From assembly GCA_947650365.1 (NCBI GenBank), contig OX393552.1, positions 52,707,428 through 52,771,427 on the forward strand: a stretch of 64,000 nucleotides of DNA. Direction: 5' to 3'. The DNA is from Chamaelirium japonicum (Eukaryota > Streptophyta > Magnoliopsida > Liliales > Melanthiaceae). Under the pieces are notes generated by a model, which saw nothing but the letters and a program-made list of their open reading frames with translations, searched no databases and had not been told where the DNA came from. The translations under genes and the position numbers were made by a program. Shown piece by piece: positions 47,701-62,810 of this stretch (position 1 is the first letter of the stretch; every line of letters starts with the position of its first letter).

Positions 47701-50700
47701 TCAAACAATTTAAGCAAATATACACGCACAACAATAAAAGATTTTAATTTAAAATTTCAAAAAAAATCCAACAAAATACCCTTTTTGGGCAATTTTGAAA
47801 ATTTTCCAACATTTCGGTCAAAATTTTGAAATTTCAGTTTCGACCTAGATCGAAACCAGACACAAAATCAAAATCACAAACGATTTTGTAAAGGGAACTG
47901 TTGACAACCCAACCTAGGGAATGGTGAATTCGGTTGGGTTCCTATGACAATGTCGCAAGGACTGCCCTATGACATATGGTGAATTTATGACATGATAATG
48001 ATCACCATACCTTAGAACATCCACAAAAAATCAGCACATTCCAAAACTTTTAAGGGCATCAAGTGCTAGAACATTTATTGGCCATCCATTTTAATCATTA
48101 GTTTGAAAAGCATATTTGATGTTTATAGAGATTTTAGAATTGTGCGGATTTTTCGTGGATAATCTAAGGTAAGGTGATTATAAAAAAAATTCAGTTCATT
48201 CTAAGTGACATGTGTCGCGAACCGACTATATGTCATAGGGTACTCCCTATGACATGTCATAGGAACCCATTTTCCTATATATATATATATATATATATAT
48301 ATATATATATATATATATATATATATATATATATATATATAGGGTCGGGATCCACAACCAACTGTTTTGGTGCCAACACCGGTGCCAACACATTCATAGA
48401 GGTCCGTAGAGGTTCAAAATTTGCTGAAATTTGGTGAGGATGATTACCTTCTTATAGATAGCATAGCCACAAAAAATTAGAACATTCTAAAACTTCTAGA
48501 TGCGTCAAATGATCATCTTCAAATTAACGGTTAATGTGGATGGTCAATAAAGCTCTTCATATTTGACGCACGTAGAAATTTTAAAATATTCTAATTTTTT
48601 TTGGACTTGCTATCTATTGGAAGGTCATCATTCTCACCAAATTTTAGCAAATTTCAAAACCTCTAAGAACCTCTTTTGATGTGTTGGCACCAGTGTTGGC
48701 ACCAAAATTGTTGGTTGTTGATCCTGATCCATATATATATATATATATATATATATATATATATATATATATATATATATATATATATATATATATATAT
48801 ATATATATATATATATATAGGAAGATCACCCTATCCACGTTCTAAAACTTCTAGGGGCATCAAATAGAACATCCACAAAAAATTGCCCTATATATAGAAT
48901 GTGCTGATTTTCTATAAGGATAATCACCCTATCTTATATAGAACATCCACAAAACTCAGCATATTCGAAAACTTCTAGGGGCATCAAATATACTTTTCAA
49001 TTTAACGGTTAAAATGGATGACCGCTTAAACTTTTAGCATTTGATGCCCCTTGAAGTTTTAGAATGTGTTGATTTTTTGTGGACATTCTAAGGTAAGGTG
49101 ATCATCCTTGCAAAAAAATGTTGTTTTTTTGTGGATGTGATATCTAAGACAAGGTGATCATCCTCACAAAAAATCAACAAATTATGAAACCTCTATAATG
49201 ATTTGAATATGGGTCATAACTCAGTGTATGGGGAGGGATCTGTTGACAACCTAAAACTGGTTGTATAATTACAATCGATCTTAGCTGAATGTTGGGTCGG
49301 GATCAACAGCTAATAGCATTTTATTTCACTCCAAGAGTCTACAAAATAATAAAACAAAAAGATCACATCACCAAGGAGAGGAATGAATGTAAACCCCCTC
49401 TCACATCACCAGCTTGCTGAAATTTAGTAGAGAGAGAGACCCAAAATCTCCCTATTGTTGAAGGTGAAGCCATCTCTGAAGGTAAACGACTGATCACCTC
49501 CGCTATTGTCGCCGATGCTTTTTCTCCCATTGTCACTGTGGTAAGATCTCTCTCCATCGCTGAAGGTGAAGGATCGATCACCCTAGCCATTGTCGCCATT
49601 ACTTTTCCTCTCGTCGTTGCATCTCCTCCCACCGTCACTGTTGTAAGATCTCTCTCTCTCTCTGTCTCTCTCTCTCTCTCTCTCTCTCTCTCTCTCTCTC
49701 TCTCTCTCTCTCTCTCTCGCCATTGCATATCCTCTTGCCATAGTAGGGGTTTTGGTTAGAGAGGAGGTTCGCAAGACCTTTGGTGATTCATGGCTTCACT
49801 GTATCTCTGAGGGATCAATATCCATCATCTTCACCCTTTCCCACGTTCAGTTAAGATCAATTATAAATATACAATTGGTTTTGAGTTATCAACATATCCC
49901 TTGCCTATATATATATATATATATATATATATATATATATATATAGAGAGAGAGAGAGAGAGAGAGAGAAAGAGATTTGCTCACCTTCGGGATGTCCCGC
50001 AGGGGTTATTTGCGGGATAAATTGTCCATCCGATTTTATTGAATCGTAGGGAGTGGATGTGAGCTGAATAAATATTATTTCACATGTGACAAAAGAAAAT
50101 CGTTATTACTGTAGCTACTACAGTAACATCGATTTTCTTGTCTCATGTGAAACAAAACAGTAACGCTTTGTTCTCTTCTCCGGTGAATCACTGTGGTAGT
50201 CCTCCCCGACCTTGAATCGCACCTTCCGGTAGCCACTATAGTAATATCGATTTTCTTTTGTCTCATGTGAAATAAAACAATAAAGCTTCGTTCTCTTCTC
50301 CAGTGAATCGCTGTCGGTGGTCCTCCCCGACCATGAATTGCACCCTCCGGCAGCCACCCCGGCCTTGGATCGCAACCTCCGGCAAGCCCCCCAACGTGAA
50401 TCGCACCCCTTCGGTAGATGTGAATCGCACTCAACTTCGACCGTGAATCGCATTAAGCCCCCTCCGATAGTCCCCCCGACTGTCATCCTCCGGCACCCAG
50501 CCCGACCAGTGAATCTCACCCATCCTCGACCGGCAGGCACGTCGACGGGGTGAATCGCACTGAAGTCAAGGTGCCTACCGGTCAGGGATGGGTGCAATTC
50601 ATCGGTCGAGGCTAAGGATGATCGGAGATGAGAGGGGCCCGTGCTCTGATGAGAGGGATACCGTTGCCGGGTTGAGCTTAGAGAGAGAGAGAGAGAGAGA

Positions 50701-62411: not shown

Positions 62412-62810
62412 GAGGAATGGGATGCTGCCTATCAAAGCAGCGTTTTTGCTGCTTTGAGACATTGTTTGACCATCCTAGAAGTTTTGGAATTTGATGAAAT
62501 TTGGTGAGGGTGTTGTCTAGGGTACGATGATCATCCTCACAAATTTTCATCAAATTCCAAAACTTCTAAGAGGGTCAAATGGTCGAAGCAAAATGCTGCA
62601 GATTTTAACGGCGACTACAGACGACTGATTTTGCTTCGACCATTTGAACCCCCTAGAAGTTTTGGAATTTGATGAAATTTGTGAGGATGATCATCTTACC
62701 CTAGACAACACCCTCACCAAATTTCATCAAATTCCAAAACTTCTAGGATGGTCAAACAATGTCTCAAAGCAGCAAAAAATGCTGCTTTGATAGGCAGCAT
62801 CCCATTCCTC
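62412..62810. mobile_element. Nested double-hairpin TA-bounded element (GAGGAATGGGATGCTGCC ends)
   Basis: The two arms of about 160 bp are almost perfect inverse copies. Each arm includes AAGCAGC-T(4-6)-GCTGCTT and its own hairpin (TTTGGAATTTGATGAAATTT / AAATTTCATCAAATTCCAAA). The centre has AAGCAAAAT...ATTTTGCTT around TTTTAACGGCGACT. Left flank (TA)n, right flank (CT)n-(TA)n. Confidence 0.93.

Follow-up and report, generated by a model that had tools for sequence, protein, structure and literature searches.

Results

Seven palindromic elements in a TA-rich window

The window, i.e. the whole stretch of Chamaelirium japonicum DNA that was analysed (64 kb; G000:C4:52707428-52771427), contains seven related elements (E1–E7) of about 334–524 nt, all of which lie in or beside (TA)n tracts. 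They are non-coding and, with the exception of E3, palindromic. Their parts follow the order end, module, centre, inverted module, inverted end, and since the module is an imperfect inverted repeat itself, a complete element holds four half-modules.

E1 (47933..48270) has ends GGGTTCCTATGACA and an interior at 47998-48204, the outer left half-module of which is degenerate; (TA)n is present on its right side only. By eye its flanks show no evident repeat. Flanks are otherwise mostly TA, GA or CT tracts, and neither a duplication of the 8–11 bp typical of MULEs nor a TTAA duplication of the piggyBac kind would be legible in them. A (TA)n tract (48276..48341) lies in the gap between E1 and E2 (48342..48730), which has ends GGGTCGGGATC / GGATCAGGATC, modules at 48397-48511 and 48560-48674, a centre at about 48516-48545 and (TA)n on both sides. 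The tract at 48731..48819 separates E2 from E3 (48820..~49240), a truncated or rearranged element with an E1-type interior and seven end-to-end mirror pairs. The E3 interior is 81–83% identical to those of loci L049, L050 and L058.

E4 (60122..60645; ends GCCCATGCAA) has modules at 60160-60271, 60323-60436 and 60490-60605 and two inverted centre copies. Beyond the tract in the E4–E5 gap (60659..60686) follows E5 (60687..61084), with ends GGGGACCGG / ATGGGAAAA and modules at 60740-60854 and 60908-61027. E6 (61566..61963; ends GGGTCAGGATCGG; modules 61621-61734 and 61795-61910), the centre of which is itself mirrored, has one tract to its left (61450..61565) and one to its right (61964..62060), and relatives of E6 are present in locus L033. 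E7 (62412..62809), with a tract to its left (62304..62411), has modules at 62466-62578 and 62643-62756 and ends GAGGAATGGGATGCTG with terminal hairpins, designated alpha ends below.

The preliminary description had set seven double-hairpin elements in (TA)n, one of them with three module pairs. Tracts do lie in or beside this set of elements, with no TA on the left of E1, and the complete structure is found in six of the seven, E3 having no matching right end; the exceptional member, E4, has three modules with two inverted centres.

The centre unit was found in all seven elements, in E4 twice and inverted. Mirrored centres (E6, E7) and paired inverted centres (E4) are unlike those of E1, E2, E3 and E5. 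The module also has an asymmetric loop, which points in one direction in E2, E3 and the middle E4 module (weak or ambiguous in E1) and in the opposite direction in E5–E7 and the outer E4 modules. This suggests flips between inverted arms. A 17-nt direct repeat, GGGA[A/T]CTGTTGACAACC (16/17), flanks the E1–E3 block at 47893-47909 and 49235-49251, and no further copy of its 12-nt core exists in the window on either strand. Between E6 and E7 sits a TA-bounded segment (62061-62303; GGCAAAGGGTTTGG...) that differs in sequence.

The elements are short, non-coding and inverted-repeat and, in the families searched (E2, E5 and E7), high in copy number, as are MITEs. Their long terminal inverted repeats, with mirror halves of 0.77–0.94 over 142–253 aligned nt, are not diagnostic alone. 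Flanking (TA)n and non-nested arrays were seen for the tracts of the window, for most E2 copies and for many, not all, of the loci chosen by their centre (see below).

Other features share the window. Two hAT-type transposase genes or remnants (54487-57087 and 34106-36505) are not linked to E1–E7; one 601-aa frame has DUF4371 and hAT dimerisation domains and other frames have DUF659. Among the named entries of the best 120 matches listed, two hAT frames match plant proteins, with identities of at most 80% and at most 61%, respectively, in these lists. Short GC-rich palindromes form two subfamilies (GGGGCATGC, GGGGGATGC), located at 837-970, 44573-44711, 62859-62992 and 62999-63144 (group one) and at 50954-51068, 61142-61260 and 61331-61449 (group two). 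They are mostly TA-flanked, some within the same tracts as the elements, and have related ends as well as a related interior. They therefore do not qualify as another instance of unlike ends on a common interior and look like an ordinary family; a pattern for the interior of the short GGGGCATGC/GGGGGATGC elements gave no matches. A 528-nt palindrome at 23974-24501 (79% self-complementary, AT-rich flanks) is without the E1–E7 module. Rfam returned no match at the gathering threshold, and three patterns (one from the short elements) had none in viral and prokaryote collections, as expected for plant DNA.

One interior, different ends

BLAST between the elements gave 152 matches (E≤0.01; best E 2.6e-38) connecting 21 of 21 element pairs, which confirms, at or near the places first proposed, that seven elements have one interior. 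The composition proposed for that interior, a module, its inverse and a related centre, is borne out likewise: an iterated half-module profile found 29 copies (E<0.01) in the 64 kb, every one within E1–E7 and none elsewhere in the window, and the best match in ten Markov-shuffled windows had E=0.086. BLAST matches extend at most 6 nt into the end segments, partly by construction, as these were cut at the module edge.

The ends were compared in 91 pairs of end segments, 84 of them cross-element. Left and right ends match each other in six of the seven elements, E3 being the one that fails. Between elements, one pair in 84, matching over 11 nt, passed the 0.01 level (p=0.00995), which is about the chance expectation. 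Terminal arms were thus correctly described as different between elements, with the reservations that the tips of E2 and E6 weakly have GGGTC(G/A)GGATC in common (p 0.02–0.08) and that ends are conserved within a family (see below). With at most one mismatch this motif occurs seven times in the window against 1.13 expected; GGGTCRGGATC at 49294, 51996 and 47318 could not be confirmed as element ends.

We simulated the inheritance of ends, excluding E3 and assuming 6% indels. The observed end score lay in the lowest 5% for nine of 15 window pairs, the other six fitting either replacement or divergence. For the E5–E7 pair, with 75% interior identity, none of 400 simulations gave an end score so low; with shuffled ends as the reference, the lowest fraction was 0.030. 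As in a CMITE-like group, conservation across families is higher in the interior than at the ends.

Separate families might have come to look alike by chance or convergence, given that the interior is rich in AT and forms hairpins. The BLAST E values and the homology ordered as module, centre, module speak against this, as do exact counts in the genome (1.52-Gb assembly, 3253 contigs): the 25-nt centre of the E1/E3 type occurs 35 times and the 22-nt centre of the E7 type 2451 times, with zero occurrences of the reversed control in either case. Together with the profile search, these results leave independent families or accidental resemblance virtually no probability, and the similarity of the interiors, which the preliminary description had exposed to refutation on this ground, is not due to chance.

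Folding of the elements

When folded as single-stranded DNA, the end-to-end hairpin was more stable than the two halves folded apart in 7/7 elements, least clearly in E3, with z values of −8.2 to −38.6 (40 shuffles per element). Folding of each half on itself was weaker. In the half-fold test, which covered E2 and E4–E7, seven of 11 modules did better than shuffles (z≤−2) and both E2 modules, the third of E4 and the left of E5 did not. The proposed two-way folding thus holds throughout for the whole element and in part for the halves. Local hairpins within the ends were assessed for 12 end segments of six elements with 200 shuffles each: E1, E4, E5 and E7 have at least one end for which at most 7/200 shuffles were as stable, and in E2 and E6 neither end reached this level.

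In the window, mirror halves pair better than chance (none of 20000 random pairings reached the observed value); the halves of E1 and E3 are nearest to each other rather than to their respective mirrors. Few columns underlie the half-module trees.

Genome families

Family-wide genome searches covered E2, E5 and E7. At first look the candidates, possibly with differently ended relatives among them, numbered 2631, 4964 and 1412, respectively, and 40 were scored for each. The E2 family is high-copy; most of the 20 loci fetched have TA flanks and similar ends, and some are truncated. The E5 family, likewise high-copy and, like that of E7, associated with (TA)n, is older, its best-scored other places being 79–86% identical. 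The best 40 of the 1412 E7 candidates are 99% identical over positions 1–398, i.e. the whole element; the E7 subfamily is young and high-copy. In E2 and E7 the ends are conserved within the family, as in amplified families generally defined by conserved ends, so they are not different in every copy. Module copies were present in one of 20 stretches of a 200-kb sample spaced regularly on C1–C4. At one locus (L009; G000:C2:80810300-80816100) nine consecutive E2-family copies of at least 300 nt, most of them about (AT)4 apart, occupy positions 1298-4759. This array is a MITE turned tandem and satellite-like.

Several end types around one interior

Of the 35 loci with the exact 25-nt centre, 20 were fetched and their end types called by eye. 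At least four types surround this centre: the E1 type, thus also found at genome loci other than E1, in eight cases, the E2 type in four, a third in two and a fourth in three; the remainder are L064 and the unassigned L066 and L068. A further 20 loci were selected by the exact 22-nt centre alone, from the first 100 of the 2451 occurrences, all on contig C1 and so not a random genome-wide sample. By eye, 11 had alpha (E7-type) ends, five had ends of a second type (beta) and four of a third (gamma).

Mean interior identity among these 20 loci, E7 and the beta copy L033b was 0.92–0.94 between end types as against 0.93–0.96 within them, whereas the mean end score of the 20 loci dropped from 75–115 within a type to 14–19 between types. 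The consensus half-interiors of alpha, beta and gamma are 0.95–0.99 identical. The centre-chosen alpha interiors average 0.959, so the alpha type as a whole is not 99% alike. End replacement, which had been suggested from the window, is upheld by these loci: copies selected by interior alone carry several end types, with interiors at 92–94% and end scores near noise.

The change differs in extent between types. Alpha and left beta ends have common flanks and a common loop side of a hairpin, while both stem arms differ and the hairpin is retained; this argues for a partial rewrite. Gamma ends differ from alpha and beta ends nearly throughout. No single conserved terminus from which all ends would derive was found, even though the rewritten hairpin of left beta ends lies between flanks that alpha ends have too. 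Two copies with interiors 92% identical to that of E7 were examined. In L033b the terminal hairpin is kept with both stem arms changed, and a relationship to the E7 end remains recognisable (score 23; none of 1000 shuffles as high). The left end of L056 scores at shuffle level against E7. In neither case was any of 1000 simulated inherited ends as low, 3% indels being assumed.

Ends that simply diverge faster, because only the interior is constrained, would need no replacement at all. Same-side gamma ends (0.75–0.89; L073, L083, L088) are indeed less alike than gamma interiors (mean 0.93), and the flanks common to alpha and left beta ends around the changed hairpin could be taken in the same sense. 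Within six window elements, however, mirror ends are about as similar (0.72–0.98) as mirror interiors (0.73–0.96), and therefore ends are not intrinsically fast-mutating. Moreover, ends can be aligned within a type and fall close to noise between types whose interiors differ by just 6–8%. Faster mutation of ends is disfavoured on both counts, and we regard it as very unlikely.

Free exchange of ends among interiors, as the word interchangeable in the preliminary description implies, is not supported. In 20 of 20 gamma-ended loci, hand-picked by eye from the first 100 of 1464 matches and with no exact centre nearby, the best-matching interior was of the E7 type, and the same held for four of four beta-ended loci read from the first 100 of 782; the seven reference interiors were those of E1, E2, E4, E5, E6, E7 and one gamma copy, and did not extend to E3 or to the third or fourth end type. 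There are two exceptions. L056, an element between TA repeats, is chimeric and combines an E7-like left half and a gamma end with an E1-like right half and an E1-type end. In L064, an E1/E3-type interior is joined to the initial 18 nt of a gamma end. Within the loci sampled, end types thus keep to their own interior clades, and the persisting lineage is the interior.

The same loci bear on the reading that it was the interior that moved, a palindromic block copied into pre-existing elements with their own diverged end pairs. Acquisition by Pack-MULEs would be a parallel, as would Galileo, in which a single central region occurs with the ends of each of three subfamilies (PMC3573991). Left and right ends of beta and gamma elements are more diverged from each other (0.64–0.77) than their interior halves (0.86–0.98) in seven of nine cases, some ends being cut short by the rule used, as capture by old end pairs would have it. 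Such pairs should then also be met with other interiors, and the gamma and beta loci read, which are small parts of the 1464 and 782 matches, had the E7-type interior throughout. The end/interior junctions of six elements are also without a convincing direct repeat (best p 0.045 and 0.06). We consider capture of the interior unlikely and replacement of the ends the preferable reading. Nested insertion of one element into another was rejected, the inner junctions of six elements having no convincing direct repeats.

Beta elements with unlike ends exist (e.g. L076, L081). Among 100 of the 782 beta-end matches, 14 pairs of like ends at 359–360 bp spacing were recognised by eye, and two of these were read (L109, L110). 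In L033, at about 800-1060, a short GC-rich TA element is seemingly fused, without TA, to one solitary module; this may represent an intermediate step by which ends are exchanged within arrays.

Similarity of arms was also compared across copies. In the E2 family (n=17; E2 and 16 of the 19 loci L010–L028), the left and right halves of a copy are no closer to each other than to halves of other copies (12752/20000 permutations reached the observed value). Hence, arm copying is not ongoing in that family, and ongoing homogenisation of the arms in each copy, as tested there, was not found. The alpha set (n=11) has a slight excess similarity of own halves (150/20000), and the value for the beta and gamma set (n=9; 12/20000) is confounded by end type.

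Probable order of the end changes

In an interior tree with 17 added gamma-ended copies (L095, L098 and L103 of the 20 gamma loci were dropped), two changes of end label are needed, which is the minimum possible. Support was 96/95 for alpha and weak for gamma (57/84), and beta is not one group. Interior identities range over 0.754–0.943 in gamma (added set), 0.932–0.989 in alpha and 0.944–0.978 in beta. The most diverse end type, gamma, is favoured, though not proven, as the oldest, giving the order gamma, beta, alpha on the basis of diversity and a midpoint root that is not independently fixed. The data support a stepwise change of the ends while the interior persisted, with one partial step out of two.

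Discussion

The elements have a common interior, closely similar interiors carry several end types, the change from one type to another is discontinuous, and the alpha (E7) subfamily is young and high-copy. We propose that E1–E7 are part of a clan of foldback mini-transposons (MITEs) that are non-autonomous and either insert into (TA)n or persist there. Members of the clan would have inherited a single interior, consisting of module, centre and inverted module, while the subterminal end segment of about 55–70 nt would have been replaced in discrete steps, in some cases entirely and in others within its hairpin. Every such step would have given rise to a family with a distinct pair of ends. Discrete replacement of ends on a persistent interior is the part of this proposal that we hold with the greatest confidence; the account as a whole, including its mobilisation, we judge to be the best explanation and a probable one.

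Since the elements are non-coding, they would have to be moved by a transposase supplied in trans. A Mutator-type (MULE) enzyme is the likeliest partner, since the MULE-type MuTAnT, SaTar and Ac-mMITE elements resemble the clan in their TA flanks, arrays, long inverted repeats and tips that are often G-rich; by this analogy, mobilisation by a MULE is somewhat favoured.

As to how matched ends arise, the end of one side may be rewritten, partly inside its own small hairpin, or may be joined by fusion of array neighbours. The rewritten end could then be copied to the opposite side via the palindrome, by hairpin template switching or arm-to-arm conversion, and the symmetric product would amplify. 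The mirrored centres of E6 and E7 and the two inverted centres of E4 indicate that palindromes were re-formed with different turning points. These re-formed centres, the chimera L056, the beta elements with unlike and like ends and the pairing of mirror halves are all consistent with such a route. The left-right divergence of beta and gamma ends, which also fits capture of the interior, counts against palindrome copying as the sole route, and we give this copying slightly less than an even chance.

A further idea is offered as speculation, and we consider it unlikely. The interior module, rather than the terminal sequence, might be the recognition site of the transposase, with cleavage needing only the interior and a TA/G-rich junction. 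Ends would then be free for rewriting, and rewrites might let lineages escape end-directed silencing and amplify, as alpha (E7) would have done.

Parts of the arrangement have precedents. The CMITE families of Acropora corals combine a conserved interior with different ends; like the present elements they have different terminal repeats with a better conserved internal region, occur in tandem arrays and keep a short terminal motif. They differ in being piggyBac-related and about 100 bp long with TTAA duplications, and the portion used describes neither a nested-palindrome interior nor an order of end changes (PMC2872659). Galileo of Drosophila mojavensis has, besides its shared central region, chimeric copies for which exchange among copies was proposed, but it is a longer animal element of the P superfamily with 7-bp flanking duplications (PMC3573991).

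Among plant elements, MuTAnT of Medicago truncatula targets (TA)n and, at 200 bp or more, has modular long ends, tips of GGGG/CCCC and a foldback made up of four similar segments. Its two subfamilies constitute a single family, for which 9-nt target duplications and a putative autonomous MULE are known, and end replacement does not figure in the text drawn upon (PMC4486113). In the SaTar elements of guayule and rice, microsatellites connect different MULE-type elements into arrays that are not nested, and fusions by deletion occur; in the sections used, their families are treated as unrelated and a shared interior is not described (PMC5907723). Ac-mMITE-1/2 of pineapple are MITEs that number in the thousands, with TA flanks, terminal inverted repeats, clusters, recent bursts and GA/CT tracts beside the ends. 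Their lengths are 510–570 and 210–270 bp compared with about 400 here, and the similarity between the two families lies in the terminal repeats, the reverse of E1–E7 (PMC8449440). Mutator-like elements with multiple terminal repeats contain extra end-like modules inside MULEs, but these internal copies resemble the outer ends, and the inner modules of E1–E7 do not (PMC3310237).

One interior with several ends (CMITE, Galileo) and TA-targeted Mutator-type MITEs are thus already known; among the open-licence full texts listed in our searches, we recognised none on ordered end replacement in TA-targeted plant MITEs.

It is by their ends that MITE families are commonly defined and followed. In the sample read here, the ends changed at least twice, once partially, on interiors that differ by only 6–8%, in a group whose copies number from hundreds to thousands and whose tip is a young, amplified subfamily. 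This provides a plant system for direct tests of the birth of new families, of the roles of ends and interior in transposition and of hairpin-driven rewriting of ends. It is also a warning that classification by ends can split one lineage into several families.
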